A stretch of DNA of 36,267 nt from Bifidobacterium breve (GTDB lineage: Bacteria > Actinomycetota > Acidimicrobiia > Acidimicrobiales > Acidimicrobilacustridaceae): contig CAMCTW010000006.1 in NCBI GenBank assembly GCA_945878645.1, positions 1 through 36,267 on the forward strand. The letters run 5' to 3'. A model generated the notes under the pieces. That model was given only the letters and a program-made list of their open reading frames with translations, was not told the DNA's origin and ran no database searches. Positions 10,360-36,267 of the stretch are shown piece after piece. Within the stretch, counting starts at the first letter, position 1, and every line of letters starts with the position of its first letter. Position numbers and translations under genes: made by a program.

Positions 10360-10377
10360 CGAGCAGGTGCCTCGTTA
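10357..10377. terminator. Perfect inverted repeat containing both convergent stop codons
   Basis: TAACGAG, seven-base loop, CTCGTTA. The first three bases are the stop of the crotonase and the last three, on the minus strand, are the stop of the amidohydrolase. It could end or stabilise transcripts from both sides; there is no T-run. Confidence 0.4.
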
Positions 10378-11550: not shown

Positions 11551-11579
11551 GGTGCGAGTCTGCCACTACCGTTCCGTTT

Positions 11580-12404: not shown

Positions 12405-12407
12405 ACA

Positions 12408-12419
12408 GGGCTCACGCCC
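12408..12419. terminator. Short GC-rich hairpin between convergent genes
   Basis: GGGC, TCAC loop, GCCC, placed in the 18-bp gap between the SDR stop and the DUF1643 stop. It is small and lacks a T-run, so it is weak evidence. Confidence 0.25.
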
Positions 12420-12422
12420 GGC

Positions 12423-14358: not shown

Positions 14359-14402
14359 GAAAAATATTTACATGGACCGATCAGAGGCGCGTTATCCAGG
14401 CA

Positions 14403-15875: not shown

Positions 15876-15955
15876 CGTGAATAGGTCATTCGGATCATTC
15901 CCGAACTCCCCGCCCGATCCATCACCCACGCGCACCCGTCGGTACCGTCTCGGCC

Positions 15956-16492: not shown

Positions 16493-16608
16493 ACCAGAAG
16501 TTTTGCGCGGATCCACGGAGAAATCCGGTAGGAAGCCAGATCATCCCTGGAATTTCGAGCCCCCTGTGTCCGACCGGGCCCTGAAGTCCCAAGACCAGCG
16601 CAGACGTC

Positions 16609-18299: not shown

Positions 18300-18314
18300 G
18301 CCCAGCATTGTCTC

Positions 18315-18329
18315 GCCGATAACCTCGGC
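18315..18329 (+). other. Small inverted repeat between thiolase genes
   Basis: GCCGA, five-base loop, TCGGC, in the 69-bp gap between the aldolase-like gene and the FadA6-like gene. It may attenuate or process the transcript; it is weak on its own. Confidence 0.2.
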
Positions 18330-18368
18330 TCATTCGTTCTGATCACAATCCACTCCGAGGAGTCCCCC

Positions 18369-19517: not shown

Positions 19518-19543
19518 TCGTCCCAACTTCTTCCCCGACGCGA

Positions 19544-19572
19544 CGAAGGCCCTGCGTAATGCCGGGCCTTCG
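19544..19572. terminator. Intrinsic terminator between convergent thiolase genes
   Basis: CGAAGGCCC, 11-base loop, GGGCCTTCG, followed on the plus strand by CTATTTAT. The 9-bp perfect stem sits between the FadA6-like stop and the stop of the minus-strand thiolase, and may serve both. Confidence 0.75.
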
Positions 19573-19602
19573 CTATTTATAGAAACGTCAGAAGCGGCCG
19601 GA

Positions 19603-20802
19603 TCAGTCGAGTTCGGCGCCGAGGAGCGAAACGAAGCTCACCATCTCGCCTGGGTAACCACCCAGGTTGTGGGTGAGCGCCAGCTTGCGACCTTCGGCCA
19701 GTGAATGGATCTTGCGCTCTTCGGGGACTTCACCACGAAGCTGCAAGAACGCTTCGAACATCATGCGCAAACCGCTGGCACCGGTGGGATGACCAAAGGA
19801 CTTCAGGCCGCCGTCGGGATTCACCGGAAGTTCGCCGTCGAGATCGAATACACCGTCGAGCACATCGCGCCATGCGGTACCGGGCGCCGAGAACTGAAGA
19901 TCTTCCATAAGAAGAAGTTCGGTTGGCGTGAAGCAGTCGTGAACTTCAGCCATTGCGACCTGTTCACGGGCGTTGGTGACGCCAGCTTGCGCATAGGCAT
20001 CGACCGCGCATGCAGCGATCTCGGGGAAGGTCGTGTAGTCGTAGTTCGGGTCGGTGAGTCCGCCGCCGTTGCCAGCGATGAACGAAAGTGCCTTCACGTA
20101 AATCGGCTTATCGGTGTACTTGTGCGCATCTTCAGCGCGACACACGATTGCTGCGGCCGAACCATCGGCAACACCAGCGCAGTCAAAGAGGCCCAGCGTG
20201 CCCGCCATCTTCGGGGCCTTCTCGACAGTTTCCACCGTGATCTCTTTGCGGAACTGTGCACGAGAATTACGGGCACCGTTGTAGTGGTTCTTCACGGCGA
20301 TATGACTGAGTGCCGCGCGCATTGTGTCTTCGTCGACGCCGAACTTATTGCCGTATGCCGGAACGATCATTGAGAACATCGCGGCTGCGGTAAGCGTGCG
20401 TGCCGTTCCGTCATTCGGAATCGGGTTGGCATTGAGGCCTTGGAAGCCGGTGTCCTTCACCTTTTCGGCACCGACAACCATGCACAGGTCGTACGCGCCC
20501 GCAGCCAATGCATACGAAGCCTGACGAAGCGCTTCAGAACCGGTTGCGCAGTAGTTCTCAACACGAGTCACCGGCTTGTTCTGCAACTGCAGCGCGCGAG
20601 CAAGAGCGATACCGCTCATGGCGCTCTGCGCGGTGCCAAACCAATACGCGTCGACATCGTCTTTGTTGACGCCGGCCGAGGCATAGGCCTCGTTCGAGGC
20701 ATCGATCATCATGTCGTCGAGGCTGGCTCCCCAGTTCTCAACGAAGTTGGTGCAGCCCATCCCGACGATGGCTACCTGGTCGCGAATTCCATGACTAGCC
20801 AC
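19603..20802 (-). CDS. SCP-x/Ltp-type thiolase with canonical active site
   Basis: 399 aa thiolase-superfamily protein. Cys85 (NYCATGSEA), His288 (VHDCF) and His338 (SFGHPTGASG) are all present, unlike the paralogue at 17097. It should be able to do Claisen chemistry on an acyl-CoA. GTG 20802 has GGGAAG about 7 nt upstream and lies 8 bp inside the end of the HMGS-like/DUF35 gene, so the two are co-translated. By analogy with the archaeal thiolase-DUF35-HMGCS complex, the product may form an assembly with the upstream fusion protein (inference). Confidence 0.87.
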   Translation of the reverse strand: MASHGIRDQVAIVGMGCTNFVENWGASLDDMMIDASNEAYASAGVNKDDVDAYWFGTAQSAMSGIALARALQLQNKPVTRVENYCATGSEALRQASYALAAGAYDLCMVVGAEKVKDTGFQGLNANPIPNDGTARTLTAAAMFSMIVPAYGNKFGVDEDTMRAALSHIAVKNHYNGARNSRAQFRKEITVETVEKAPKMAGTLGLFDCAGVADGSAAAIVCRAEDAHKYTDKPIYVKALSFIAGNGGGLTDPNYDYTTFPEIAACAVDAYAQAGVTNAREQVAMAEVHDCFTPTELLLMEDLQFSAPGTAWRDVLDGVFDLDGELPVNPDGGLKSFGHPTGASGLRMMFEAFLQLRGEVPEERKIHSLAEGRKLALTHNLGGYPGEMVSFVSLLGAELD

Positions 20803-22198
20803 GGATCAGCTTCCCCTTCCAGAAGTAGTTGTGGATGCCATCGGCGGTGAACAGACGACGGAACGTCATCTCGACACGGCCACCAATGGCGACCTCTTCA
20901 AGATCAGTATCAGTGAGTTCGATTGGCAAACGTCCGCCACCGTCGAAATCGACGACAGCAAAAATAATTGGCGGACTCGGCGAATACGCAATGCGATCGA
21001 CCGTGAACGTGGCGATCGTGCCCTCCACATCGGCCATCGGTGCGTCTTCCATCTGATCGGTGCGCTGACCATCAGAAGAAACTCGTATCGGCGGAAGGAA
21101 GACATCACCAGTTTGTGAATCACGACTGCCAACGAAACCAAACTTCCAATCGGTCGTGCGGGCAGCGGCTGTTCCCGAAGGACGGGCCGGTTCGGGACGA
21201 CGGGGCGGTTCGACATTGATCATGCCGCGCCATGAAAGGAATCGGCCGTAGGCCAGTGGCGCACCCGATGCGAGTTGTGTCGCAATTGAACGAGTGGGCG
21301 TGTACTTGGCAATCGCAGGCGATGTGCGAAGAATCATGACGTCGGCGCCATCGGCAAGAACAACAAGCGCAATGGTTTGGCCAGGTTCGGCGTTCTCAAG
21401 TGCGTTGGCCAGCACCAAACCGGGCTGCGCTGCGCCAGTGCATCCGATCGTTGCGGTGAGGTCGTCGACAACCTTGGCGGCGCCAACCTTTGATGCAAGC
21501 GCAGAGCCGATTCGAGCAGTTGGTGCAGCGACGGCAACAAGGTCAACCTGATCGGCCGAAAGGCCGGCGGCTTCGAGAGCGTTCTTGTAAGCCTGACGTC
21601 CAGCGGCGACGTAGGTGAGTTCAGAGAACTTGTCGTCCCACACCTTCGAGCGAATCTCACCCGGGGTCCGCCAGCGATCGATGAATTCCTCGGTGATGCT
21701 GGCCCCGCCGATGTATTCGGCAACCACTGCATCGCTCTCACCAATGACAAATGCTGCGGCAGCATCGCCGCCATTGGCTTCATCCGCCGAACCGGCCAAA
21801 CCGGTGCGCATATCGGAGGTGACAACGAGTCGATTGCCCACCGTGGAAAGAGCAAGGCGCAGAGCGCCAGCAGTGGAGCCGACCGATGCGCCCATGTCGA
21901 ATGCCGGAACTGCAGCCGGCAGACGCAGTGCCGCATGGATTGCTGTGGCGTTGGTTTTGTCGGCGTAGGCAGGAAGCGCGGTGCCGAAGAGGACTGCCTC
22001 GGGAGCCGAAGCGCCGGAAACGTCAGCACCACGAAGTGCCAGGCGTGCTGCCTCGACACCCATTGAAGTTGTGTCTTCATCGAAGGACGCAACCGCTCGA
22101 GTGCCGCGGCCACCTCCCTGTCCGATGAAAGCCGAAATTTGTGACTTATCAAGCCGTCGATACGGGAGGTAAGCCCCCCAAGAAATGATGCCTCGCAT
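20795..22198 (-). CDS. HMG-CoA synthase-like domain fused to DUF35 OB-fold, catalytic and zinc residues missing
   Basis: 467 aa from ATG 22198. Residues 1-310 have the HMG-CoA synthase/KAS III-like thiolase fold (GAYLPYRRL; FDEDTTSMGVEAA at 39-51; TIGCTGAAQPG at 250-260). The catalytic Cys position is Ser105 (GASVGST) and the expected His is in AAPTAR, without His. Residues 345-467 form a DUF35-type OB-fold, but the ribbon GSRDSQTGDVFLPP has no cysteine. The whole protein has one Cys (253). It probably does not make HMG-CoA and may act as a scaffold or CoA-ester binder for the overlapping thiolase. The operator-like site at 22212-22228 lies just before the start. The in-frame extension upstream to 22975 lies over the oxidoreductase gene and is not coding. 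Confidence 0.85.
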   Translation of the reverse strand: MRGIISWGAYLPYRRLDKSQISAFIGQGGGRGTRAVASFDEDTTSMGVEAARLALRGADVSGASAPEAVLFGTALPAYADKTNATAIHAALRLPAAVPAFDMGASVGSTAGALRLALSTVGNRLVVTSDMRTGLAGSADEANGGDAAAAFVIGESDAVVAEYIGGASITEEFIDRWRTPGEIRSKVWDDKFSELTYVAAGRQAYKNALEAAGLSADQVDLVAVAAPTARIGSALASKVGAAKVVDDLTATIGCTGAAQPGLVLANALENAEPGQTIALVVLADGADVMILRTSPAIAKYTPTRSIATQLASGAPLAYGRFLSWRGMINVEPPRRPEPARPSGTAAARTTDWKFGFVGSRDSQTGDVFLPPIRVSSDGQRTDQMEDAPMADVEGTIATFTVDRIAYSPSPPIIFAVVDFDGGGRLPIELTDTDLEEVAIGGRVEMTFRRLFTADGIHNYFWKGKLIRG

Positions 22199-22201
22199 GC
22201 C

Positions 22202-22228
22202 TCTGACAGTAACTGATAAACCGTCAGA
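22202..22228. promoter_or_regulatory. Operator-like inverted repeat, copy 2
   Basis: The inner site at 22212-22228, read on the minus strand, is TCTGACGGTTTATCAGT, a 14/17 match to the site at 9379-9395. It is flanked by a further TCTGAC at 22202-22207, pairing with GTCAGA at 22223-22228. It lies 14-30 nt upstream of the HMGS-like gene and in the divergent promoter of the F420-type oxidoreductase. Confidence 0.6.
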
Positions 22229-22264
22229 CACCGCAAAGACAAGCCTCAAAACCAAGGAACCGCC

Positions 22265-22297
22265 ATGCCCGCCACATCGACGATCGTGCCCCAGTAG
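22265..22297 (+). CDS. Possible 10-residue leader peptide
   Basis: ATG with AAGGA 6 nt upstream opens a 10-codon frame (MPATSTIVPQ) whose TAG directly abuts the ATG of the oxidoreductase at 22298. The main gene has no ribosome site of its own, so this frame may carry ribosomes to it. No attenuator structure was seen. Confidence 0.35.
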   Translation: MPATSTIVPQ

Positions 22298-23335
22298 ATG
22301 ACCGCCACCGTCCTGCCTGAACTTGGCTTCTACACACTTCCCGGCCAGCCCGATTCCTCTCGCGACCTCATTGCCGAGGTTCGTGAAGGCGAAGCGTTGG
22401 GCTTTGGCCGCGTGTTCGTCAGCGAGCGCTACAACAAGAAGGAAGCCGCCACGTTGTGTGGCGCGGTTGGCGCGGTGAGCGAACGCATTGCGATCTCGAC
22501 CGCGGCGACAAACCACAACACTCGCCACCCGATCGTCACCGCCGGGTTTGCGCGCACGATGCAAAGTCTGACTGGCGGCCGTTTCACATTGGGCCTCGGT
22601 CGTGGCATTGCGCCGATGCAAGATGCATTCGGCATTGACCGCATCACCACTGCTCAGATGGAAGATTTCGCCGGGCTTATGCGCCGACTGTTTCGTGGCG
22701 AGGTCATCATCGGCCACGACGGACCAGCGGGCTCCTGGCCGGTTCTTCACATTGACGCAACGCTCGACGAATACTTGCCGATGGGGATAGTGGCATTCGG
22801 CGACAACACGCTTGAACTCGCAGGCCGCTGCTTCGACGAGGTTGTGCTCCACACCTTTTTTACCGACGAAACCACCGCACATTGCGTACAGACTGTGAAG
22901 CGTGCTGCCGAACAAGCGGGCCGTAACCCTGATGAAGTGAAGGTGTGGTCGTGTTATGCCACCATCGGCGATCACATCGGCGAAGAAGAACGGCTGATGA
23001 AGCTGGTGGGTCGTCTCGGCACCTACCTACAGGGCTACGGACACTTACTTGCTCGCACAAACGGTTGGGACGAAGCCGTTGTCGATCGCTTCCTTGCCGA
23101 TGAAGTGGTGAGTTCGGTTCGCGGCCTCGATGTTGTGGGCACCACCGAACAGTTGCAGCACGTCGCCACCCTTATTCCCGAGGAATGGCTTTCGTCAGCC
23201 GCGGTTGGCTCCCCCGCTAACTGCGTCGCGGCGGTGCGTAATCAACTCGCGTTGGGTTGCGACGGCGTGATCATGCACGGCGCAACTCCAGCGGAACTTG
23301 CGCCCATCGTGGCCGAGTACCGGGCCACGGCCTGA
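22298..23335 (+). CDS. LLM-class F420-dependent oxidoreductase (TIGR03857/MSMEG_2249-like)
   Basis: 345 aa luciferase-like TIM barrel. The sequence follows the TIGR03857 family as I recall it: LPELGFYTL at the start, GAVGAVSERI, ATNHNTRHP (70-78), LTGGRFTLGLGRGIAP, QMEDFAGLMRRL and VLHTFFTDET. The family is predicted to use reduced F420 or oxidised F420 with an unknown substrate; in Mycobacterium, F420-type genes lie near ltp thiolase genes. ATG 22298 gives the family start, though the ribosome site belongs to a short leader frame. It begins a plus-strand run with the CoA transferase and KSI-like genes, and is divergent from the HMGS-like gene with a shared operator-like site. Confidence 0.9.
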   Translation: MTATVLPELGFYTLPGQPDSSRDLIAEVREGEALGFGRVFVSERYNKKEAATLCGAVGAVSERIAISTAATNHNTRHPIVTAGFARTMQSLTGGRFTLGLGRGIAPMQDAFGIDRITTAQMEDFAGLMRRLFRGEVIIGHDGPAGSWPVLHIDATLDEYLPMGIVAFGDNTLELAGRCFDEVVLHTFFTDETTAHCVQTVKRAAEQAGRNPDEVKVWSCYATIGDHIGEEERLMKLVGRLGTYLQGYGHLLARTNGWDEAVVDRFLADEVVSSVRGLDVVGTTEQLQHVATLIPEEWLSSAAVGSPANCVAAVRNQLALGCDGVIMHGATPAELAPIVAEYRATA

Positions 23336-23368
23336 ACCTCTGCTCGGCTCGCCCGGTAGGGTCGGCGC

Positions 23369-24616
23369 ATGGAACTCGGAGCAATCACCAATCCCGATGC
23401 CGTCCAGTACGGCAAGCCCCTCGAAGGCGTGCGAATTCTCGCCCTCGAGCAGATGCAGGCTCTCCCTTACGCCACACAACTTCTGGCTCGCCTCGGCGCC
23501 GACGTTGTGAAGGTCGAGAGCGTCAAGGGCGGTGATTTGGGCCGCGGTTCACAACCGGGCATCACCGACCCCGATGGCCGCTTTGTCGGTGCTACCTATT
23601 TGCGCAACAACCTCGACAAGAAGTCGATCTGTGTCGATCTGAAGGCGCCCGAAGGCAAGCAGCTCATCCTCGACCTCGCTCCCAAGTTCGACATCGTCGC
23701 CGAGAATTTCAAAGGCGGCGCGCTGTCACGCATGGGTCTTGGTTATGACGACATCGCCGCAGTGCATCCGGGTGTGATCTACCTGTCAGTTTCCGGATTT
23801 GGCAACACCGTTGCAACGCCATACGACGGTTGGCCCGCGTACGCCGCAGTCGCAGAAGCAATGAGCGGCATCTACGACTACAAACTCGAGCCCGGCCGCC
23901 CGCCCGCAGTTTCACCCGTTGGCGCACTCGGTGACATCGGCACCGCGCTCTTCGGCACCATCGGCATTCTCGCTGCACTTCGCCATCGCGATCGCACCGG
24001 CTTAGGTCAGTACATCGACGTTGCGATGTTCGACGCCATGATTTCGATGACCGATCTCGTCACCAACTTCTGGTCACTCGGATTGCGCCCCGCCCCAGGT
24101 CAAGGCCTGGCCATGATCCTCGACGGCTTCGAAGCCTCGAATGGTTGGTTCATTATTCAGGTCGGTCGCGAGCACGAGTTTGAACGTCTCGCCAATCTCG
24201 TCGGCAAGCCGGAATGGCTCACCGACGAACGACTCTCAACTCGCGCCGGCTGGCGCGAACACATGGACGACATCCTTCGCCCTGGAGTGAAGGAATGGGC
24301 AGCCGGCATGACCAACATCGATGCATGCCGAGCGCTCGCTGATGCCGGTGTTGCGGCGGGGCCATGCCTTACCGCACAACAGGTCATTGATGACCCTCAC
24401 GTTGCTGCCCGCAACATGCTCATGGAGATTCCTCGGCCCGAGGGCGGCGACCCGGTGCTCACTCCAGGAAACCCCATCAAGATGTCGCGGGTTTCCGAAG
24501 GCCCCGATGTACGCATGCCGTGGCTTGGCGAACACACCAACGAGGTGCTCGCCGCTGAGCTTGGTCTTGATGACGCACGCATCGAACAGCTTCGTGCCCA
24601 TGGAGTGATCGCATGA
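23369..24616 (+). CDS. CaiB/BaiF family III CoA transferase
   Basis: 415 aa. It has the family opening LEGVRILALEQ, then LLARLGADVVKVE (38-50), NLDKKSICVDLK, VAENF, and the catalytic aspartate region GALGDIGTALFG with Asp189. Family III enzymes move CoA between carboxylates through an aspartyl-CoA anhydride; some act as racemases, but the AMACR-type His/Asp pattern is not evident. AGGG lies 7 nt before the ATG, and it starts 33 bp after the oxidoreductase. The stop overlaps the next gene (ATGA). It is likely to re-activate or swap CoA on the pathway acid; the donor is unknown. Confidence 0.9.
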   Translation: MELGAITNPDAVQYGKPLEGVRILALEQMQALPYATQLLARLGADVVKVESVKGGDLGRGSQPGITDPDGRFVGATYLRNNLDKKSICVDLKAPEGKQLILDLAPKFDIVAENFKGGALSRMGLGYDDIAAVHPGVIYLSVSGFGNTVATPYDGWPAYAAVAEAMSGIYDYKLEPGRPPAVSPVGALGDIGTALFGTIGILAALRHRDRTGLGQYIDVAMFDAMISMTDLVTNFWSLGLRPAPGQGLAMILDGFEASNGWFIIQVGREHEFERLANLVGKPEWLTDERLSTRAGWREHMDDILRPGVKEWAAGMTNIDACRALADAGVAAGPCLTAQQVIDDPHVAARNMLMEIPRPEGGDPVLTPGNPIKMSRVSEGPDVRMPWLGEHTNEVLAAELGLDDARIEQLRAHGVIA

Positions 24617-25023
24617 GCGAACTCTCTGCCCATCCGGCAGTTGCTGCCGTTCAACAACATGCCAGCAACTGGAACGCTCAGGATCGCCAGGCATGGCTTG
24701 CACTGTTCGAAGACAGCGTCACGTTCGAGGACCCGGTCGGTAAAGCCCCAAAGGTTGGGCGCGCTGCTGCCGAAGGTTCTTGGGACAACTCCTTCACCGA
24801 TGGTCGGGTCTGGACGCTGCACCCGCAGCGAATCATCCCCGGCGGCACCCACGAAGCAGCAGTTGAGATGCTCAACAAGGGCACTCTGCACGGCGAACTC
24901 GTGGAGTTACGCGGCATTGAGATCTACAAAGTGAACGACGCCGGCAAGATCATCTCGGTACGAGCGTTCTTCGAACAGCCCACCGATTTCGAACTGAACC
25001 CGTTCTTTGTTCCTGAGGCTTGA
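24613..25023 (+). CDS. Ketosteroid isomerase-like (NTF2-fold/SnoaL) protein
   Basis: 136 aa. It aligns well by eye with bacterial delta5-3-ketosteroid isomerase: VQQHASNWNAQD (13-24), LFEDSVTFEDPVG (31-43) and GKIISVRAFFEQ (111-122). The general base Asp is conserved (Asp40). The catalytic Tyr14 position is His16, and Asp99 is Glu103. A steroid or related cyclic enone/CoA ester is a fair guess for the ligand, but the changed oxyanion hole means isomerase activity is not assured. It overlaps the CoA transferase by 4 bp (ATGA) and ends the operon. Confidence 0.75.
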   Translation: MSELSAHPAVAAVQQHASNWNAQDRQAWLALFEDSVTFEDPVGKAPKVGRAAAEGSWDNSFTDGRVWTLHPQRIIPGGTHEAAVEMLNKGTLHGELVELRGIEIYKVNDAGKIISVRAFFEQPTDFELNPFFVPEA

Positions 25024-25034
25024 ATCCTGAATCA

Positions 25035-25057
25035 CCGATCAACGCAGGTCCGATCGG
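25035..25057. terminator. Weak inverted repeat between convergent genes
   Basis: CCGATC, 11-base loop, GATCGG, in the 80-bp gap after the KSI-like gene and before the stop of the minus-strand dioxygenase. No T-run. Confidence 0.25.
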
Positions 25058-25103
25058 CACAAAGACGCACCGACGACACCGATACGCCCTTCAGCGAATG
25101 GGA

Positions 25104-25946
25104 TCAGTCCCGGAAGAAAGGTCGCTCACCGTCAATGGTGCAGCGACGCATGCGCCGATGCTGCGGATAATGATCGGCGAGCGCGCGATGGTTGGTTGAC
25201 GCTTCGTCCCAAATAGCGACATCGCCGTGTTGCCAGTGCCAGCGCACCTGATTGTTGGGATCGTCGATAAGGCCTTGCAAGTAACCAAGAAGCAGATCGC
25301 TCTCGGCACGGTTCATGCCCACGATCTGATCCATAAAAAGTCCGGCGACAAAGAGCGCCTTCTTGCCAGTGACGGGATGAGTGCGAATGAGGGGATGCTC
25401 AACTGCTGGATAGGTCGCTTCGAGATCGGCGATGAGTTGTGCCCCGAATATTTCCCCGGTGATGCGATCGAATTCCGCGCCGCGATGATGCAAGACGGAT
25501 AGCTGTTCACAGAATGCGGCCAATTTGGGACTCAACTGGTCATAGGCGGCATAAAGACTCGACCACATCGTGTCGCCCCCAGAGGGCGGAATGATGTCGC
25601 CATAAAGCACGGCGATTCGCGGTGGTTCGGCGACCCAGGTCACATCGGTGTGCCAAGTGTCGGTCGCGGGCGGACTCTCAACAGTATCTTCGATCACCGA
25701 CATCGTCGTATCTCGTCCCATCATTTTCGAAACAGGGAACACCGAGAGCGGTCCCCATCGCCCGGCGAAGGCGGCTTGGGAGTCGGCGGTGAGTTCCTGG
25801 CCCCGGAGAAAGACGACCTGATAGCGCATAAGCGCTTCGTCGATGGCCGTGAACTCCGCACCGTCGAGGTCGGTGAGATCGACACCGTCGATCTGAGCGC
25901 CGATCCGATTGGAAAGTGGGGTCACCGTGAGAGATGTCGTCGTCAC
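25104..25946 (-). CDS. TauD/TfdA-family Fe(II)/2-oxoglutarate dioxygenase
   Basis: 280 aa from GTG 25946, chosen because GGAGGT lies 8 nt upstream; the open frame runs on upstream into the neighbouring gene. It has the iron-binding HxD (His99, Asp101 in WHTDVTW), the distal His253 (TNHRALADHY) and Arg264 for 2-oxoglutarate. The start SNRIGAQIDGVDL and SGGDTMWSS are typical of the family. It hydroxylates a substrate with loss of CO2 and succinate, and in TauD/TfdA or AtsK members releases sulfite, sulfate or a phenol. The substrate is unknown. It follows the duplicated alpha-beta protein by 32 bp, so they form an operon. Confidence 0.88.
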   Translation of the reverse strand: MTTTSLTVTPLSNRIGAQIDGVDLTDLDGAEFTAIDEALMRYQVVFLRGQELTADSQAAFAGRWGPLSVFPVSKMMGRDTTMSVIEDTVESPPATDTWHTDVTWVAEPPRIAVLYGDIIPPSGGDTMWSSLYAAYDQLSPKLAAFCEQLSVLHHRGAEFDRITGEIFGAQLIADLEATYPAVEHPLIRTHPVTGKKALFVAGLFMDQIVGMNRAESDLLLGYLQGLIDDPNNQVRWHWQHGDVAIWDEASTNHRALADHYPQHRRMRRCTIDGERPFFRD

Positions 25947-25978
25947 GTTCAAATACCTCCGGGTCAGGTCAGAGTGTG

Positions 25979-26758
25979 TCAGAGAGTCGGTTGCGTGTCG
26001 TCGGAACCGAACCACATTTCGAGCGACGCGTCTTCCCAGTCGTCGGGTCCGACGATGGTACGAGGCAGCGGCGTCATTACATGAGTGGTTCCACCGATGG
26101 TGTACTCGGCGCTTCGGCGTTCCCACGCAACGATGCGCTCATCGGCTTCGCCTTCATCGCATAATCCGAGAGCAGTGTCGCGGTTTCGGTGAAGGCGAAT
26201 TTGTGCCGGGATGTTGGTCGACCACACCATGACAACTTCGTGAGGGTTCGACACGACTTCATAGAGACCAACAGGTTCGTGCTCATATTCGCGCCACAAG
26301 GGAACGCGCTCGGCAACGTTCGCAGCTAAAAACTCGAGTGCGGTCCCGGCGCGCACGTCGAGTACTTCGTGTACAAACAGCGTGCCTTTTAACTTCTTTT
26401 CGACGAGATCAGAGGTGGTTGGGCTACCAGGAACGCCAGCCAGAAGGCGGTCGAAACCACCACTTCGCCACTGCGCGGCTTTGTCCCACCAATCGCCATA
26501 GAACGCGTTACGCCGTTTCAGGTTCAACCTGTCGACATTGCGACCCCACGACTCCCAGCCCTTATCGCCACAATCCCAAATGTTGATGACCTGCGGCCAA
26601 CGACCGCCACCTTGCGCACACACGTAGAACGACCCAAGCAAGTTGTTCATCTCAGGCATGCGCAACACGGGGTCCTGCCACAGGTGCTCCATGTAGTCGT
26701 ACTGGCCTTGACCAACGACATCGACGACTTCATGCAAGTACAAGCTGCGCTTTGCCAT
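25979..26758 (-). CDS. Two-repeat alpha-beta (NIPSNAP/dimeric ferredoxin-like) protein
   Basis: 259 aa. I do not recognise a named family with certainty. Two halves repeat: LYLHEVVDV (6-14) matches LFVHEVLDV (127-135), and GSFYVCAQ...VINIWD (42-62) matches GLYEVVSN...VMVWS (164-180). Each half looks like a dimeric alpha-beta barrel unit of the NIPSNAP or EthD type, fused in tandem to make a pseudo-dimer. Such proteins act as small oxygenases, dehydratases or lipid-binding proteins. GGGGAAG lies before the ATG. It is the first gene of the operon with the dioxygenase, so it may prepare or accept the same substrate. Confidence 0.55.
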   Translation of the reverse strand: MAKRSLYLHEVVDVVGQGQYDYMEHLWQDPVLRMPEMNNLLGSFYVCAQGGGRWPQVINIWDCGDKGWESWGRNVDRLNLKRRNAFYGDWWDKAAQWRSGGFDRLLAGVPGSPTTSDLVEKKLKGTLFVHEVLDVRAGTALEFLAANVAERVPLWREYEHEPVGLYEVVSNPHEVVMVWSTNIPAQIRLHRNRDTALGLCDEGEADERIVAWERRSAEYTIGGTTHVMTPLPRTIVGPDDWEDASLEMWFGSDDTQPTL

Positions 26759-26856: not shown

Positions 26857-28269
26857 CTACTTGCTGATCGGATACCAAACAGCGTCTACAGGAACCCAGC
26901 ACTGAATATCGGCTGGGCAGTTGTTGTAGGTGCCATTGGCATTCTTTGCGGTGCCCGTAGGAGCCGCGGTCAACTTGTCGCCATGGATGAAATCGGCGAG
27001 GTAGGTCTTGCCTGTGGCCTGTGAACCCTTGCCATCAGAGCCGAGGGCGATCGGAAGACTGCCAAGGCCACGCATGGCCTTCATGAAGCTTTCACGGGTC
27101 AGCTTCTTGCCGGCCTTTTCGAGGGACAATTTGAGGACATTGGAAAGCGTGCACTCATTCGGCGGGGCGTCGGAACTCGCCTTTGTGCCGTCAGGCATGG
27201 TGCGGGTTTCGCCGGAAGGAATACCCGGAGTGGACTTAACGCCGCCGAAGTCGTTCGCAGAAATCTTGTCGAAATGTGCACGACATTCTTTCTCGAAATC
27301 GGTTTCAGCGCGGAGCTTGCCGTCAGATGAGGTTGAATCGCCCCAGATCGTGTAGCAAATGCCACCGACGGCGGAAGGCTTGAGGCTCTTCGCTCCGTAT
27401 GCGGTGCACATCGATGAAGCAACGTCGAGGAAGGTGAACTTCCAGCCGTTGCCTGCTGCGTTGTCCCAGAAGCCACCTGAAGCGGTGAACTGAAGGGCAA
27501 CAACAACGTTGGCAAGACCGGCGGCCTTGAAGGTGTTCACGGCAGCAGCCGACTCGGTGTTCTGAATACCCGGGTCACCCTGAAGTGTGTTGATCTGAGC
27601 AACGGTGACCTTGTTGCCATTCGCTTCAAGGACGGTCTTGGCTGCACTAACGGCCGCAACGTGCTCTGGGCCATTACCACTAAGGACGCCCACTGCGGCA
27701 CCCTTCGCGATCTGACCAGCCTTGACCGCGGCAGCGACGCCAGCGCTCGCATTGGTCTCAGCCGAAGGCGAGATCGAGGTGAGCCAACCGGTGTCATGCG
27801 CAGACTGCGGAGCGTTGTCACCAAAGAGAACGGGAACGCCCGCGGCGGCGATGCACTCGATGTACTTGGCACCCATGCCGTTGGTGTTCATGAATGCGAA
27901 CACCGGGGTATTGATCGTGGCATCGTCGCAAACCTTCTGCGCAGTGGCCGGCTTCACCGGATCCCATGTCATGACAACGGCTTCAATCTTACGGCCATTA
28001 ATGCCGCCAGCCGCGTTCCACTCATCAAAGTAAGAAGTAACACGCTTTGAAAGGTTCGTAGTCGTGAGTGCCGGGGCAAGCGCAATACCTGCGGCACGGA
28101 GACCATCGAGATCGGAGACAGCAACAGCGATCTTGATAGTGGTGTCGGTGACGCCAGTGGTGTCGCCGGCCCCGCCGGAACTGCTATCGGAACTGGAACA
28201 TGCAGCAGCTAGGAGCGTGAATGCACACACAACCGCAATTGCTGCAGTCCAAGTTTTTGAACGTGCCAT
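26857..28269 (-). CDS. Branched-chain amino acid-type ABC substrate-binding lipoprotein
   Basis: 470 aa. It has a lipoprotein signal with lipobox LAAAC (Cys24), then a Ser/Gly linker, then a type I periplasmic-binding fold of the LivK/Peripla_BP_6 class (TTIKIAVAVSDLDG; FDEWNAAGGINGRKIEAVVM; FMNTNGMG). It should hold the substrate outside the membrane for the LivHMG and LivF parts encoded divergently. Related receptors bind amino acids, aromatic acids, amides or steroid-like acids, so the substrate is open. AGGGGG lies 6 nt before the ATG, and a perfect 11-bp palindrome lies 26 nt upstream. A UUCG hairpin follows the stop. Confidence 0.92.
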   Translation of the reverse strand: MARSKTWTAAIAVVCAFTLLAAACSSSDSSSGGAGDTTGVTDTTIKIAVAVSDLDGLRAAGIALAPALTTTNLSKRVTSYFDEWNAAGGINGRKIEAVVMTWDPVKPATAQKVCDDATINTPVFAFMNTNGMGAKYIECIAAAGVPVLFGDNAPQSAHDTGWLTSISPSAETNASAGVAAAVKAGQIAKGAAVGVLSGNGPEHVAAVSAAKTVLEANGNKVTVAQINTLQGDPGIQNTESAAAVNTFKAAGLANVVVALQFTASGGFWDNAAGNGWKFTFLDVASSMCTAYGAKSLKPSAVGGICYTIWGDSTSSDGKLRAETDFEKECRAHFDKISANDFGGVKSTPGIPSGETRTMPDGTKASSDAPPNECTLSNVLKLSLEKAGKKLTRESFMKAMRGLGSLPIALGSDGKGSQATGKTYLADFIHGDKLTAAPTGTAKNANGTYNNCPADIQCWVPVDAVWYPISK

Positions 28270-28452: not shown

Positions 28453-30669
28453 ATGTCAACAACCGATGACGAGAGCACCAGCAGCCAGGGCTTGTCGAGC
28501 CTGACCTCTGTGATCTTTGAAGAAGAGCAGCAACGCCTCGCCGCCGCCAACGAAGAGATCGTGGTGCTGCCCGATGACCTTCTACCCGGAGTCGGCGGAA
28601 AAGGGATGCGCCTGAGTGAGGGTCTGAAACAGGGAGGGGTCTCAATGATCGCCCTGCTGCTGCTGCTCATCGTCGTTGAAGAATTTCAGACCGTGGCCCT
28701 GCTCGTCCTTGGTCCCGACATTCAAGAGACGCTTGATATTTCCGATACGACGCTTCTCGGTCTCATCAGTTTTGGCGGAGTCGTGCTGGTGCTTGCTTCG
28801 TTGCCATTTGCTTGGCTCGCCGATCGCTATTCCCGCACAAAGGTTCTTAGTGTTGCAACTGCGGTCTGGGGGGCTTGCGGTGTAGGTCTCGGTTTCATCG
28901 TGAACCCGTTCCAGATGGCTTTCGGTACTGCAGGAACAGGAATTGGCAAGTCAGCAAATATTCCAATCACCCCGTCATTGATCGCCGATCAATATCCGAT
29001 CGGGGTCCGTACTCGCATGTTCGCCGCCCAAACCTTGGGCCGGCCAATCGGTCAAGTTGTAGGGCCGATCGTCGCTGGCGGAATTGTCCTCATCGCCGGC
29101 GATCAAGCCGGTGACTGGCGCTGGGTGTTTTGGATGTTCGGATTTCCGGCTGTGGGACTCGCAATTGCGTTCGCCTTCAAGCGCGAGCCCAAGCGCGGGC
29201 GCAACGAACAAGAAGCTGTTTTTGGTGAGGACATCACCGAAAGCGAAATTCATGACGGACCGGTTCGCCTTAGCGCTGCCATGGCAAGGCTCAAAAAAGT
29301 TCGGACCTTTTATTTTCTTATCGTCGGCATCGGCGTTCTTGGTTTCGCGCTCGTCGCGGTTCCCGCCACCTTCAACCTGCTCATGAAAGATGTGTATGGG
29401 TATGGGGCATTCCAGCGCGGTTGGATCATGTCAATCACTTGGTCGGTCTCGGTAATTGCGATTCCGATAGCTGGTCGTTATGGAGAGCGCCTCTTTCGCA
29501 GAAATCCGCCCTCGGCCCTCAAACTCATGGGCGCATCAATTTTGATGTACGGATTTTTCCTCACAGTCGGACTCCGATTCCAACAAGCAGCAATCCTGAT
29601 CGCATTCTTTGCAATCGGCAACGCGTGCCAAGGAATGGCCTTCACCCAACTCGGGCCAACAATCTCCGCCGTCGTTCCGTACCAGATGAGAGCCCAAGCG
29701 TTCTCGATGGTGGGCGTCTACATCTTCCTGATGGGTGGATTCTTCGGTGGCCTTCTCACCGGAGCATTCTCCGACGCATTCGGGCAACGCACTGCGCTCA
29801 CAGTCGTCATCCCTGTGGCGACACTCATCGGTGGGCTCATGATCATTTACGGATCCCGCTATATGAAGCGTGATATCTCACTCACCGTTTCCGAACTTAT
29901 GGAAATGCAAGAGGAGCAAAAGCGAATGGCCGCCGACCCCGAGAACGTCCCTGTTCTTCAGGTGCGAAATGTCGACGCCTCTTACGGAACCCTTCAAGTG
30001 CTTTTCGACGTGAGTTTCGAAGTCAAGAAGGGCGAGTGTCTTGCCCTTCTCGGCACGAACGGTGCAGGAAAGTCAACCATTTTGAGGTCCATCAGTGGTT
30101 TGTTGAATCCCGACCGCGGCGTCATACGCATGAACGGGAGGACAATCACTCTTGTCGATCCTCAGTATCGAGTAGCGCTCGGAATGATGCAGATCCCTGG
30201 CGGCGATGCAGTGTTCCCATCAATGACCGTTTCGGAGAATCTGGAACTCTGGAGTGAACTCATCGAAGACAAGCAGAAGCGAGCAGAGCGGGTTGAGGCA
30301 ACATTTGAGGTCTTCCCAGAACTTCTTCATCTCGTCGATTCGAAAGCCGGCTCTCTGTCCGGCGGTCAACAACAGATGCTTGCGCTAGGCAAAGCAATCA
30401 TGCTTGAACCCGACCTGCTTCTCATCGATGAACTGTCGCTGGGGCTCGCCCCAATCGTTGTGCAACGTTTGCTCGGCATCGTGGAGAAACTGAAAGAGCA
30501 GGGGACAACGATGGTGCTTGTCGAACAATCAGTAAATGTGGCATTGGCGGTTGCTGACCGAGCGGTGTTCATGGAGCGTGGTCAGGTGAAATTCGAAGGA
30601 CCGGCCCAAGAATTGTTAGAGCGCGATGACCTCCTTCGCGCCGTGTTCCTTAGCGGAGAGGGTGCCTGA
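28453..30669 (+). CDS. MFS transporter fused to LivF-type ABC ATPase
   Basis: 738 aa from ATG 28453 (AGGAG 4 nt upstream). Residues 1-60 are cytosolic and acidic. Residues 65-475 are an MFS domain of about 12 helices with motif A (AWLADRYSRTKVL, 120-132). Residues 498-738 are a full ATPase of the LivF class: Walker A GTNGAGKST (534-542), signature LSGGQQ (635-640), Walker B LLLIDE, and the LivF-like VLVEQS in place of the H-loop. The neighbours hold LivH, LivM, LivG and the receptor but no other LivF, so this ATPase must complete the importer. The reading frame is continuous, so this is a real fusion, not a misjoin. Tethering of a secondary carrier to the ABC pump, or regulation of one by the other, is inferred. 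Confidence 0.9.
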   Translation: MSTTDDESTSSQGLSSLTSVIFEEEQQRLAAANEEIVVLPDDLLPGVGGKGMRLSEGLKQGGVSMIALLLLLIVVEEFQTVALLVLGPDIQETLDISDTTLLGLISFGGVVLVLASLPFAWLADRYSRTKVLSVATAVWGACGVGLGFIVNPFQMAFGTAGTGIGKSANIPITPSLIADQYPIGVRTRMFAAQTLGRPIGQVVGPIVAGGIVLIAGDQAGDWRWVFWMFGFPAVGLAIAFAFKREPKRGRNEQEAVFGEDITESEIHDGPVRLSAAMARLKKVRTFYFLIVGIGVLGFALVAVPATFNLLMKDVYGYGAFQRGWIMSITWSVSVIAIPIAGRYGERLFRRNPPSALKLMGASILMYGFFLTVGLRFQQAAILIAFFAIGNACQGMAFTQLGPTISAVVPYQMRAQAFSMVGVYIFLMGGFFGGLLTGAFSDAFGQRTALTVVIPVATLIGGLMIIYGSRYMKRDISLTVSELMEMQEEQKRMAADPENVPVLQVRNVDASYGTLQVLFDVSFEVKKGECLALLGTNGAGKSTILRSISGLLNPDRGVIRMNGRTITLVDPQYRVALGMMQIPGGDAVFPSMTVSENLELWSELIEDKQKRAERVEATFEVFPELLHLVDSKAGSLSGGQQQMLALGKAIMLEPDLLLIDELSLGLAPIVVQRLLGIVEKLKEQGTTMVLVEQSVNVALAVADRAVFMERGQVKFEGPAQELLERDDLLRAVFLSGEGA

Positions 30670-30671
30670 TC

Positions 30672-33482
30672 GTGATGTTCGGACTCACATTCAGCGGAGA
30701 CATCATCTTCTCCGGATTCATTCAAGGATTGGTCTATGCCCTCGTGGCATTCGGCCTCGTTCTTATCTTCCGAGCAACGGGTGTTATCAACTTTGCTCAA
30801 GGCCAGATCGGAGCCTTCGGCGGTTACGCCATGGCGTTGCTCTTCATTCAGTACAAGATTCCCTACGTCTGGTCTATGCCCATAGCCTTGGGGGCCGGGG
30901 TGCTTCTTGGCGTCGCCTCTGAACTCATCCTCCGGCGATTATTCACCCAACCGAGACTCCTACTTTTCGTCGCAACGCTCGGCCTCACCCAACTTATTCA
31001 GTTGCTGCAACTTCGCCTTCCGATCCCCGAGGGTGATGTAGCGGGCGTGACTTATCCAGTCATCCTGAGTGGCAGTTGGGATCCTTTCGGGGTGACTGTC
31101 ACCGGACCGATGATCACGATCATCATCGCCGTTCCACTCCTGATGCTCGGTCTCACACTTCTGCTTCAGAAATCGAAATTTGGTCGGCAGGTCAGAGCCA
31201 CTGCCGACAATTCCGCGTCGGCGCAACTAGCAGGCATCTCAATCCGAAGCGTATCGACCAAGGTCTGGGCTCTCGGTGGCCTGCTGGCTGTCATCGCTGC
31301 ACTTCTTATTGCACCCGTACAAGGGGGCAATATCGCAACTGTGAGTTCGGCGCTCGGGCCAACTCTGCTCCTCTTAGCTCTTACCGCAGCAATGTTTGGT
31401 CGGATGCGATCATTCGGTTGGACCGTTGTTGGCGGTGTGGTTGTTGGCATCGTCAATGGGCTTTGTGTGACCTGGGCCCAGGTCGGTGAAATACCGCAGG
31501 GATCTAACATTTTGGCAATCTTCCTCATCCTCCTCGTTCTCATTGTGTTCAACGGAAGCGGAAGTGGGCTGAGTGCTGACGAATGGCAACTCACCACGAA
31601 ACTCAAGTCAGCCAACGAAGAACTGCGAAAGCATCCGCTCTATCGATTGTCCACCGTGCTTGGGCTCGGACTACTTCTCGCAATCGCGCTGCTTCTTCCG
31701 CAAATCTTCAACAAGCCGACCGACCCACTTCGATATGCCGAGATTTTGGTCTGGATCATTGCCGCACTCTCCGTCACGGTGCTCACCGGATGGGCAGGGC
31801 AGCTATCTCTTGGCCAGTTCGGATTTGTAGCAATCGGGGGATATTTCACCGTGAAGTTCTCCGGAGGCTTACCCGTCCCTGTTGCCATTCTGTTCGGAGT
31901 TGCCTTTGGAGTCATCGCCGCCCTCATCGTTGGTGTGCCGGCATTGCGAATAAAAGGCCTCTTCCTCGCCGTGATCACCCTTGGATTCGGGCTGATGGTT
32001 CGAAATTGGCTCATCTTCAATAGCGCGCTTTCTGGACAAGGAGCTATTGCCAATCTTGACGTCAATCGAGCAAAGGGCTACCGACTTTTGTTCTGGAACG
32101 TGAAAGGCAACAACTTCCAAGGTGTGTATTGGTTCTGCCTTCTCGTGACGATCCTCGCTCTTTTGTTGGTGTGGCAGATCAGGCGGACAGGGGTTGGCCG
32201 ATCAATCATCGCGGTGCGCGACAACGAACTCGCCGCCGCGGCGTACACCGTCTCCCCCACCGCGAAGAAGATCACCGCGTTCGCGGTTTCAGGCGGCCTC
32301 GCAGCCCTTGCCGGTGGACTTCTCCCGCTGCTGTCGGCTCAACTCGAACTCAGCCCCAACACCGGATGGTTCGATGTTGAGCAATCCCTTCGAGTCGTCG
32401 CTGTCGCCGTTGTAGGCGGTATCGCATCGATTACTGGCGCTGTTCTTGGCGTTATTGTGGTCATCGCGATACCAATTCTTTTTGATGGCACGCCACAGGT
32501 AAAATTGTTTGCCAGCAGTATCGGCATGTTGGTTGTACTGCTCTATTTCCCCGGTGGTCTTATTTCGATCATCCATTCAGCACGCGACCTTCTCCTGGGC
32601 TGGCTCGCTAAGCGCACCGGATGGGAGCCAAAACGAAACACCCAAGTTGGTTCCGTAAGTTCACTGGCATCAGTGAAGACTCATGATGAGAACAGCGCAA
32701 TGCCGCTCGTGGCGACTGATGTCACGGTTCGCTTTGGCGGACGAGTTGTTGTCGACAGCGCCTCGATCACGGTCAAGCCTGGCGAGATTGTTGGCCTCAT
32801 CGGTACCAATGGTGCCGGCAAGTCAACGCTCATGAACGCGGTTAGTGGTTTCATTCCCAGCACGGGAACCATTGAAATCTTTGGGACCGAAGCTCACGAT
32901 CGTTCGGCGCCACGCCGTGCTCGCCTCGGCATCGGTCGTGCATTCCAAAACGCCCGATTGTTCTCATCGCTGAGCGTCCGTGAAACCCTCATGGTCGCTT
33001 TGGAAGCTCGCGAGAGTTCGCTATTGGTTCCATCGATGCTTTCGCTTCCGCCCTCACCACAACGCGAGAAGCGCAAGCACAAGCAGGCCAACGAGATCAT
33101 CGGCTACCTCGGACTTTCTCGTTACGCCGATTCCCTCCTGGGCGAACTCTCTACCGGCACTCGACGCATCGTCGAACTCGGTGCATTGTTAGCCCTCGAC
33201 AGCGAACTGCTGCTTCTCGATGAGCCCACCGCCGGTGTGGCGCAGAAAGAGACAGAAGCATTCGGTCCTCTCATCGAATCGATCCGCAAGGAACTTGGCG
33301 CTTCGATTCTTGTGATTGAGCACGACATGCCAATGGTCATGTCGATCTCTGACCGGATCTACTGCCTTGAGGCTGGTTGTGTCATTGCAGAAGGCGACCC
33401 AACGTCAATCCGTAATAATCCTGCCGTGATTGCTTCATACCTCGGCACTGACGAACGAGCCATCGCCCGTTCTGATTCGTAA
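30672..33482 (+). CDS. LivH-LivM-LivG fusion: ABC permease, permease and ATPase
   Basis: 936 aa. Residues 1-300 are a LivH permease (GLVYALVAFGLVLIFRATG, with INFAQGQIGAFGGY). Residues 325-645 are LivM (GWAGQLSLGQFGFVAIGGY; ALRIKGLFLAVITLGFG). Residues 675-930 are a LivG-type ATPase with Walker A GTNGAGKST (711-719), signature LSTGTRR (826-832, with Thr-Gly-Thr in place of the usual Gly-Gln-Gln), Walker B LLLLDEPTAG, and VIEHDM. One chain thus supplies both permeases and one ATPase. It starts 2 bp after the MFS-LivF stop; GTG 30672 is followed by ATG 30675. The stop directly abuts the stop of the convergent dioxygenase. Confidence 0.93.
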   Translation: MMFGLTFSGDIIFSGFIQGLVYALVAFGLVLIFRATGVINFAQGQIGAFGGYAMALLFIQYKIPYVWSMPIALGAGVLLGVASELILRRLFTQPRLLLFVATLGLTQLIQLLQLRLPIPEGDVAGVTYPVILSGSWDPFGVTVTGPMITIIIAVPLLMLGLTLLLQKSKFGRQVRATADNSASAQLAGISIRSVSTKVWALGGLLAVIAALLIAPVQGGNIATVSSALGPTLLLLALTAAMFGRMRSFGWTVVGGVVVGIVNGLCVTWAQVGEIPQGSNILAIFLILLVLIVFNGSGSGLSADEWQLTTKLKSANEELRKHPLYRLSTVLGLGLLLAIALLLPQIFNKPTDPLRYAEILVWIIAALSVTVLTGWAGQLSLGQFGFVAIGGYFTVKFSGGLPVPVAILFGVAFGVIAALIVGVPALRIKGLFLAVITLGFGLMVRNWLIFNSALSGQGAIANLDVNRAKGYRLLFWNVKGNNFQGVYWFCLLVTILALLLVWQIRRTGVGRSIIAVRDNELAAAAYTVSPTAKKITAFAVSGGLAALAGGLLPLLSAQLELSPNTGWFDVEQSLRVVAVAVVGGIASITGAVLGVIVVIAIPILFDGTPQVKLFASSIGMLVVLLYFPGGLISIIHSARDLLLGWLAKRTGWEPKRNTQVGSVSSLASVKTHDENSAMPLVATDVTVRFGGRVVVDSASITVKPGEIVGLIGTNGAGKSTLMNAVSGFIPSTGTIEIFGTEAHDRSAPRRARLGIGRAFQNARLFSSLSVRETLMVALEARESSLLVPSMLSLPPSPQREKRKHKQANEIIGYLGLSRYADSLLGELSTGTRRIVELGALLALDSELLLLDEPTAGVAQKETEAFGPLIESIRKELGASILVIEHDMPMVMSISDRIYCLEAGCVIAEGDPTSIRNNPAVIASYLGTDERAIARSDS

Positions 33483-34483: not shown

Positions 34484-35785
34484 TCAATCGGCTTGGGCGA
34501 GGATCGCCATGACCTCGTCGGCGAGGCGCCCCGTGCGCAGCAACTCGGCCATGACCTTCATCGGCCGATCAATGTGGGTGAAGAACTCGTAGTAACCGGC
34601 ACACAAATAGTTGAGCCCGTCTTCGCCATCGGCCGTTGTCGCGAACCGATTACGAGGGCATTCGCCATGACAGGCGAATCGAACCTCACATGTGACGCAC
34701 TGGGAAGGCAGCGTCGTGGCTTTGGCTGTGCCAAAGGCCTGCTGCTGCGGAGAGGCCACCATTTCGGCCAGGTGGCGCTCGGAGATGTTGCCCAACAAGT
34801 ACTCGGGCTCGACATAGTGATCGCAGGAATACACGTCTCCGTTGTGCTCCAGAGCGATTGCCGTTCCGCAGGTCTCAGAGAAGATGCACATCGATGACTG
34901 CATGCCAAGCCATGCCGCGAGCGCAGCGTCGAAGGACGGCACGAAAACTTCGCCAACGTCGTTACGCACCCATTCATCGAACACTGCCGTGAGGAAGTTT
35001 CCCCATTGCTCGGGGGTCACCGATCGTTCCGTGACAAGTGAGCCGTCCTGCACATACAGCGGCCGTTCGGAGGCTCGTACTCCCCAACCAGCGTCGGCTT
35101 GAACGATGAGTTCAGGCGTGGCCCGTTCAACGATTGGGATCAACTGGATGAATCGAACCCCGAGTTCGTCGCGGAAGTGCTTGTACACCTCAATACCATG
35201 ATCGGCGTTGGCGGCATGCACTGAACACAAGACGTTCGTGGCCACGTCGTGGCGCTGCAGGAGCTCCCATGCCGCCTTCACGCGTTCGTAGGTGGGTCTT
35301 CCCTGCTTATCGACACGATAGGCATCATGCATCGCTGGCGGGCCATCGAGAGACAGACCTACCAACACGTTTTCCGCTGCGAGAAACTCACACCACTCAT
35401 CGTCGAGCAGAGTCCCATTGGTCTGCAACGTGAACTCGAGAATTCGCTGAGGTCCCGCGATCTCTTTGGCTTTGGCCACAAGGCGGCGGTAAAAGTCGAC
35501 GCCCATCAATGTGGGTTCGCCGCCTTGAAACGCGATCGTGATTTCGCGAGTTCGGTGCGCTGCAATGAGTTGGGTCAGATAGGTCGTAACGAGATCGTCG
35601 GACATCCGAAATCGGTCACCGGGATACAACTGTTCCTTCGACAAGAAGAAGCAGTAGGTGCAATCAAGATTGCAGATTGCCCCTGTTGGCTTGGCGAGCA
35701 CGTGGAACGCAGGAGGAAACCCCTCGGGCCAGGTTGGCGGAAGTTCGGGTTCGCCAGAGCGGCGGAACGTAACGGGTTGACTCAC
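34484..35785 (-). CDS. Radical SAM/SPASM protein, anaerobic sulfatase maturase type
   Basis: 433 aa from GTG 35785, 10 bp after the sulfatase stop. It has the radical SAM motif Cys38-x3-Cys42-x2-Cys45 (CNLDCTYC), then FQGGEPTL and LQTNGTLL. The SPASM-type C-terminal half has SETCGTAIALEHNGDVYSCDHYV split over several Cys, QCVTC...CHGECPR, and LCAGYYEFF, enough for two more Fe-S clusters. The layout is that of anSME enzymes, which oxidise an active-site Cys or Ser of a sulfatase to formylglycine. The sulfatase gene lies immediately upstream. The in-frame extension beyond 35785 is antisense-like and not coding. Confidence 0.9.
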   Translation of the reverse strand: MSQPVTFRRSGEPELPPTWPEGFPPAFHVLAKPTGAICNLDCTYCFFLSKEQLYPGDRFRMSDDLVTTYLTQLIAAHRTREITIAFQGGEPTLMGVDFYRRLVAKAKEIAGPQRILEFTLQTNGTLLDDEWCEFLAAENVLVGLSLDGPPAMHDAYRVDKQGRPTYERVKAAWELLQRHDVATNVLCSVHAANADHGIEVYKHFRDELGVRFIQLIPIVERATPELIVQADAGWGVRASERPLYVQDGSLVTERSVTPEQWGNFLTAVFDEWVRNDVGEVFVPSFDAALAAWLGMQSSMCIFSETCGTAIALEHNGDVYSCDHYVEPEYLLGNISERHLAEMVASPQQQAFGTAKATTLPSQCVTCEVRFACHGECPRNRFATTADGEDGLNYLCAGYYEFFTHIDRPMKVMAELLRTGRLADEVMAILAQAD

Positions 35786-35795
35786 GCGAACCAGA

Positions 35796-36267
35796 TCATT
35801 GCGAAGCGAAGAACGCTTCGATTTCGAGGGCGAGGTCGCGGAACGGGGTACCCGACACATCGACGACCACGGTGTCGAGTCGACCAGTGAAGTGGAACGG
35901 CGCCAAATAGGTGTTGTCGACCGGCGTTCCGTCGTCATATCCGATACAGAAGTATTCGCCGAACAAGTGATACGAATAAATCGTCGTCTGCGGAATCTCG
36001 CCACTGGCCACCACTTCGCCGTCGACAAGTAAGTCAACTGTGCCAGCGAACTGACCCGTTGGCGTGAATGAATAGCCGAGTGTGTGATGGCCTTCCGGCA
36101 GCGGAGGTGACGACACGCGAAAACGCTGCTTACCCAAGAAGTTGTGCACGTAATGGAGCGCGTTGTCTTGCATGTAGAGCGCGTACCCACCGAAGCGACC
36201 GCCATGGGCGACGAGCACACCTTCATCGTCGGCGGTGTAGTCAACATCGGCAACCGTGAGCGAGGGA
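35796..36267 (-). CDS. Arylsulfatase, C-terminal part only
   Basis: The frame is open to the right edge, so only about 157 residues are present and the active-site CxPxR or SxPxR box lies outside. The visible part is the beta-rich C-terminal domain of arylsulfatases: VLVAHGGRFGGYALYMQ, NFLGKQRFRV, GHHTLGYSFT, TVDLLVDGEVVASG, and a final FTGRLDTVVVDV. It is the substrate for the maturase just downstream. Whether the protein is exported cannot be seen here. Released sulfate or the freed alcohol is the likely benefit. Confidence 0.85.
   Translation of the reverse strand, partial: PSLTVADVDYTADDEGVLVAHGGRFGGYALYMQDNALHYVHNFLGKQRFRVSSPPLPEGHHTLGYSFTPTGQFAGTVDLLVDGEVVASGEIPQTTIYSYHLFGEYFCIGYDDGTPVDNTYLAPFHFTGRLDTVVVDVSGTPFRDLALEIEAFFASQ

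Follow-up and report, generated by a model that had tools for sequence, protein, structure and literature searches.

A Spinster-type MFS domain fused to the LivF ATPase of a Liv-type importer is conserved across many actinobacterial genomes

Liv-type (HAAT) importers, fusions among Liv subunits and carriers of the Spinster family are all already known, and the MFS and ABC transporters are usually held to be separate classes with separate energy sources. In the Spinster HnSpns, Asp41 of TM1 pairs with Arg122 of TM4, Arg42 is a substrate residue, Glu129 of TM4 serves as the intracellular protonation master switch, and Asp87, Arg91 and Asp142 form the motif-A charge relay (PMC9440201). The scheme has since been extended to a mycobacterial Spns (PMC13192786). 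Here we describe a locus in which the two transporter classes share one polypeptide. The window, by which we mean the whole stretch of 36,267 nucleotides that was analysed, contains the following features:

26857-28269, minus strand: Peripla_BP_6 substrate-binding protein with a lipoprotein-like signal (Pfam, E 4e-14)
28453-30669, plus strand: MFS-LivF fusion gene, 738 aa
28627-29862, plus strand: Spinster-type MFS domain, residues 59-470, 12 helices (Pfam, sequence and fold comparison, AlphaFold2)
28678-28692, plus strand: TM1 residues 76-80, EEFQT (alignment with HnSpns)
28813-28836, plus strand: motif A, residues 121-128, WLADRYSR (alignment)
28927-28950, plus strand: TM4 residues 159-166 (alignment with HnSpns)
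29863-29952, plus strand: helical linker from TM12 to the ATPase, residues 471-500 (AlphaFold2, alignment)
29953-30657, plus strand: LivF-type ATPase domain, residues 501-735 (Pfam, NCBIfam, comparisons)
30052-30078, plus strand: Walker A GTNGAGKST, residues 534-542 (sequence)
30355-30375, plus strand: ABC signature LSGGQQQ, residues 635-641 (sequence)
30418-30453, plus strand: Walker B region LLIDELSLGLAP, residues 656-667, with catalytic E660 (sequence)
30672-33482, plus strand: partner gene, a LivH-LivM-LivG triple fusion, 936 aa (two BPD_transp_2, ABC_tran, BCA_ABC_TP_C)

The sequence-only reading of this DNA had proposed that an MFS domain with motif A and a LivF nucleotide-binding domain lie in a single frame, and our analysis confirmed this. 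The frame is open from the ATG at 28453 to the TGA ending at 30669, GAGGAG ahead of the ATG provides a good ribosome-binding site, and Pfam recognized MFS_1 at residues 73-417 (E 3.5e-38) and ABC_tran at residues 518-660 (E 7.7e-29), each as a single stretch. Motif A reads LADRYSRTK in the product, and Walker A, the LSGGQQQ signature and Walker B are all intact. The Walker B core of the LivF half is LLIDE, followed by leucine to give DEL in place of the usual DEP; since the same spelling occurs in sister systems that lack an MFS domain (DELSLGLAP), it marks a subfamily of LivF. Among NCBIfam models the ATPase half scored best against those for UrtE and LivF, falling under both curated cut-offs (198.7 of the 285.8 bits needed for UrtE, TIGR03410, and 182.8 of the 441 bits needed for the LivF equivalog, NF008626). 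It ends with VEQ, which we take to be typical of LivF. An AlphaFold2 model built from 33 sequences confidently resolved two domains (mean pLDDT 82.7, pTM 0.77), with a complete 12-helix MFS domain and one unbroken helix, residues 445-494, running from TM12 into the linker.

We searched for the joined MFS and ABC order across genomes. In the sample of the window's class we counted matches at E <= 1e-95, a threshold that requires both domains and that single-domain matches in this sample fell short of. The fusion was present in 76 of the 296 genomes sampled from that class. An independent genome collection yielded 79 loci, and MFS and LivF were joined in every one of them, with a local frame break in LivF at one locus (L173) and some loci ended by contig edges; two of the 79 match the window without a difference over the searched part (residues 1-528) and stem from separate studies. 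Of 396 genomes sampled across the phylum, 19 matched over both domains; 13 of these belong to the window's class, and six further genomes gave partial matches. Several of the 79 loci lie on chromosomes of long-read MAGs and one comes from an isolate, Jiangella muralis DSM 45357. Embleya sp. NBC_00888 carries a 44.5% identical copy on a linear megaplasmid, with LivH-LivM-LivG and a binding protein after it. Its presence in these named strains, the Jiangella being available from a culture collection, makes the fusion testable. Several genomes carry at least two copies (for example L225), which suggests different substrates. At L225:73-15764 two divergent MFS-LivF / LivH-LivM-LivG systems flank one binding protein gene. 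Five MAG records titled Bifidobacterium breve (L102, L126, L129, L158 and L161) contain sequences 51-100% identical to the acidimicrobial locus studied here, and these titles therefore look wrong.

A misassembly, a frameshift artefact or read-through of unrelated neighbours would have undone the proposal. The sole point in favour of such an origin is that the source assembly is fragmented (172 contigs); it is countered by 79 loci with the same fusion, some of them from long-read MAG chromosomes and one from an isolate, and the single seeming exception was a scaffold gap. We consider the probability of an artefact to be negligible. That exception, L052, had been a candidate for an unfused close homologue, and was rejected because a gap of 10 Ns sits at the junction. 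We likewise rejected the reading of frames of 1700-1900 aa in class B (defined below) as five-domain single chains, as their N-terminal part holds no in-frame LivH or LivM domain and is probably an overlapping frame. The fusion is conserved across many actinobacterial genomes, and artefact and chance are excluded.

The gene after the fusion begins 2 bases past its stop codon. The expectation that LivG would be found there was correct in that LivG is present; the gene is, however, a LivH-LivM-LivG triple fusion of which LivG forms the C-terminal third. Pfam identified two BPD_transp_2 permease stretches within 30675-33479, the set of Walker A, signature and Walker B is present in both the LivF-like and the LivG-like ATPase domain, and upstream of MFS-LivF a divergently transcribed gene codes for a Peripla_BP_6 binding protein. 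Since LivF, LivG, LivH, LivM and a binding protein are all found, the locus is, judged by its domains, a complete Liv-type (HAAT) importer in three genes to which an MFS module has been added. The LivG signature is LSTGTRR, not LSGGQ, and this variant is shared by nearly all related systems with or without an MFS domain. A profile made from the binding proteins detected one in the flanks retrieved with nearly every locus; those without one are mostly short contigs.

Three gene arrangements were observed. The order is [MFS-LivF][LivH-LivM-LivG] in what we call class A, [LivH-LivM][MFS-LivF-LivG] in class B (L064, L066, L220 and L224) and [MFS-LivF][LivH-LivM][LivG] at L223, and in all three the MFS domain is joined directly to the N-terminus of LivF. 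Among the 79 loci, 75 have at least 300 bases after the fusion, and in all 75 the start of LivH, usually as part of a LivH-LivM-LivG fusion, lies no more than 400 bp beyond the stop of MFS-LivF, at a median distance of 15 bp. The window's genome also has conventional stand-alone LivF genes (frames of 261 and 268 aa on C2). It had been argued that the LivF half must serve the adjoining LivH/LivM pump, thereby placing a secondary carrier physically on an ABC importer. The constant proximity of LivH bears this out, as do the class B genes, in which MFS-LivF-LivG stands beside LivH-LivM.

For identification of the MFS half we compared both sequence and fold. The nearest solved structures by sequence are Spns1 (9boi), HnSpns (6e8j) and Spns2. 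By fold, Spns1 (Z 39.8 over 411 residues) and Spns2 (Z 39.6) came first with other MFS families close behind (Z 38 and below), so the assignment to the Spinsters rests on sequence and fold together. None of the fold-search matches listed contained MFS and ABC as one pair in a solved structure. When 114 fusions were aligned with HnSpns residues 27-420, the motif-A relay (D124, R128 and D179 in the window, corresponding to HnSpns D87, R91 and D142) proved invariant in all 114, indicating that the gate is retained.

The proton switches gave a different picture. The window has Q79 at the position of the proton-coupled D41 of HnSpns, T80 at that of Arg42, T159 at that of Arg122 and K166 at that of the switch Glu129. 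Position 129 is never Glu among the 114 aligned fusions, and in the non-redundant set only 4 of 61 fusions have an acid anywhere in HnSpns 129-133, compared with 14 of 20 unfused relatives, where the TM4 acid is mostly at position 133. At positions 41 and 122, D or E occurs together with Arg 77 times and neither occurs 35 times, with one exception. On the tree this pair changes about five or six times, the window's lineage being among the losses, and L115, a near relative of the window, keeps D and R. Of the two named strains, Embleya retains the pair as E and R, and Jiangella, with S and Y, has lost it. Both members change together in 5 of 6 independent contrasts (sign test p = 0.06; six contrasts are too few for this test to reach 0.05). 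In the window's lineage the absence of the Spinster switches argues against an ordinary proton-driven carrier. The pair is nevertheless kept in 46 of 61 non-redundant fusions, about three quarters, and some proton coupling may therefore remain in the fusions that retain the TM1 acid and TM4 Arg. A further TM1 acid, E76 in the window, is D or E in 113 of 113 fusions with the column filled. We considered it as a mark of the fusion and rejected it, because 19 of 20 unfused relatives have the same acid beside the usual pair; being common to both, it is a feature of the subfamily and not of the fusion. It could be another proton site.

Since synonymous sites were near saturation, we used dN alone in comparing the window with five relatives. 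The MFS domain (0.095-0.217) is on par with LivH (0.085-0.196) and the N-terminal tail is loose (0.18-0.54). Four of the five pairs put the linker at 0.00-0.07 and the remaining one at 0.19, values closer to those of LivF (0.02-0.09). Within the N-terminal tail, which is cytosolic, the stretch DDLLPGVG (28573-28596, residues 41-48) is conserved in class A and absent from class B. Of the 33 class A rows, 32 have a span of 27 residues from D474 to P500, and the range for the two classes together is 25-28. Across 35 class A loci the mean identity is 0.42 for the MFS domain and 0.42 for LivH, and MFS distances track those of the Liv domains with r of 0.63-0.68, compared with 0.67 for LivF and LivH. 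By helix, TM2, TM7, TM11 and TM12 are the most conserved in class A and TM1, TM3, TM9 and TM10 the least. Weak conservation of the cavity helices TM1 and TM10 would fit either loss of transport or a change of substrate in that class. As proof of an interface, the conservation of TM12 was judged too weak, being seen in class A only and at a ratio of 1.29 against 0.90-1.14.

Close kin of the fusion ATPases occur in the window's class as LivH-LivM-LivF-LivG chains without an MFS domain (for example L213). The existence of these sister importers indicates that the MFS part is an addition which the pump does not require. Class A forms a single clade in the MFS tree (SH-aLRT 99), where class B has fused and unfused kin interleaved around it; in the LivF tree class A is again one clade (98), and class B is mixed with the MFS-less systems. 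These topologies could reflect a single joining with later losses, or two joinings. Two unfused MFS genes (L221:7644-10559 and L241:7125-9014) are nested among the class B fusions in the MFS tree, and their fetched flanks carry no Liv genes; they are possible losses of the motor half. At L240:4695-9789, LivH-LivM, LivG and LivF are unfused to any MFS, and a separate, distant MFS gene lies 5 bases after LivF.

The region 6173-26126 of the window encodes acyl-CoA ligases, a CoA-transferase III, three thiolase-like proteins, a ChsH2-type OB-fold protein, a luciferase-like monooxygenase and a TauD dioxygenase, and is likely an acyl-CoA catabolic cluster. The window as a whole contains two acyl-CoA ligases, one CoA-transferase and two TauD dioxygenases. 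Given these genes, the substrate at this locus may reasonably be guessed to be an amphipathic organic acid. At other loci the neighbours are mixed; 95 neighbouring proteins have no pathway in common beyond the binding protein, and we therefore rejected deduction of a substrate from neighbours. At the window's edge (34487-36266, minus strand), a radical SAM protein with a SPASM domain, reminiscent of sulfatase maturation, lies beside the end of an unassigned protein.

How the two halves work together allows several explanations; the sequence-only reading had offered that the MFS part could pass substrate, exchange a counter-solute or gate the pump. We tentatively favour, as quite possible and short of probable, the one in which the carrier still moves, tied to the ATPase cycle instead of to protons, and handles an amphipathic organic acid. 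The observations behind it are the composition, conservation and adjacency of the genes, the ATPase motifs, the retained MFS gate, the missing proton switches and the constrained linker. The binding protein and LivHM would perform the uptake step itself; the MFS module would sit beside LivHM in the membrane, and the LivF/LivG ATPase cycle would open and close it through TM12 and the linker. An MFS module set by the ATPase in this way would no longer need proton coupling, and it would probably move an amphipathic organic acid from the membrane to LivHM, or release a product moving with it. That the LivF/LivG cycle powers alternating access in the Spinster module by way of TM12 and the linker helix, which made the proton switches dispensable, we judge to be rather unlikely. 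Coupling to the ATPase has to contend with the majority of fusions that keep the TM1 acid and TM4 Arg, with E76 as a potential proton site, with the poorly conserved TM1 and TM10, which fit lost transport as well, with the sister importers, whose pumps can work without an MFS part, and with the mixed neighbours of the other loci.

Alternatively, the MFS part may be an independent secondary carrier merely co-located with the pump, which exports or exchanges a product or counter-solute in fixed ratio with it and has no mechanical coupling to it. We regard this as somewhat doubtful, if a serious contender: the gate residues are intact, purifying selection resembles that on LivH and LivM, among the products of the window are acyl-CoA ligases, a CoA-transferase, thiolases and a ChsH2-type OB-fold protein, and the participation of both ABC and MFS transporters in the re-uptake of cholate metabolites by Rhodococcus jostii RHA1 offers a functional precedent (PMC8399759). 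However, with the Spinster switches lost in the window's lineage the usual driving force of such a carrier is not evident, and a constrained linker of fixed length exceeds the needs of scaffolding. The missing switches would also suit an MFS module that has ceased to transport and serves as a membrane anchor or in assembly or regulation, keeping LivF at LivHM or sensing the membrane, as would the MFS-less sister pumps and, in class A, the weak conservation of TM1 and TM10 beside the strong conservation of TM2, TM7, TM11 and TM12. A simple anchor would need no gate, though, and here all 12 helices and the motif-A relay are kept and amino-acid substitution does not outpace that in LivH; we find this explanation doubtful. 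It is improbable that the module is an ordinary proton-coupled symporter or antiporter that uses E76 in place of the usual Spinster acid and runs in parallel to the ABC pump on the same substrate. The invariance of an acid at position 76 is in favour of this, but the presence of that acid beside the usual pair in unfused relatives shows that it is not a new replacement, and parallel transport would leave the fusion unexplained.

What the locus presents is a conserved and repeatedly rearranged importer in which the proton switches of the carrier have eroded and the gate has been kept. Only proof that ATP hydrolysis powers the MFS part would make it categorically new. An ABC-driven MFS would mean two translocation pathways on one motor pair in one complex, and a transporter fold that swapped its energy source in evolution; if the ATPase does not move the carrier, there is still a stable super-complex of carrier and pump. 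In open-access full text we found no account of an MFS carrier joined to an ABC motor; database architectures may list such a fusion without comment.

The locus can be compared with several described systems. With the Liv/HAAT importers (LivFGHM with LivJ/K) it shares LivF, LivG, LivH, LivM, the Peripla_BP_6 protein and intact ATPase motifs; it differs in that these membrane and ATPase subunits are gathered in two chains, that a 12-helix MFS domain is attached to LivF, and that the LivF and UrtE scores lie under the cut-offs. The LivH-LivM-LivF-LivG single chains (L213) have the same DELSLGLAP Walker B and the same LivG LSTGTRR, and no MFS domain. As for fusions of MFS carriers, the excerpt of the TCDB table in PMC3924187 contains no MFS-ABC motor pair; it does include the sensor kinase-MFS proteins (2.A.1.34), in which an MFS is likewise joined to another functional domain. 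CamABCD and CamM of R. jostii RHA1 are an ABC and an MFS transporter in one catabolic pathway, and they differ in being separate proteins acting on different metabolites (PMC8399759). The closest solved relatives are the Spinsters HnSpns, MsSpns, Spns1 and Spns2, with which the fusion has the Asp-Arg-Asp relay in common; unlike them, it carries an ATPase and lacks the TM4 switch Glu, and members of the window's lineage are also without the TM1 Asp, TM1 Arg and TM4 Arg.
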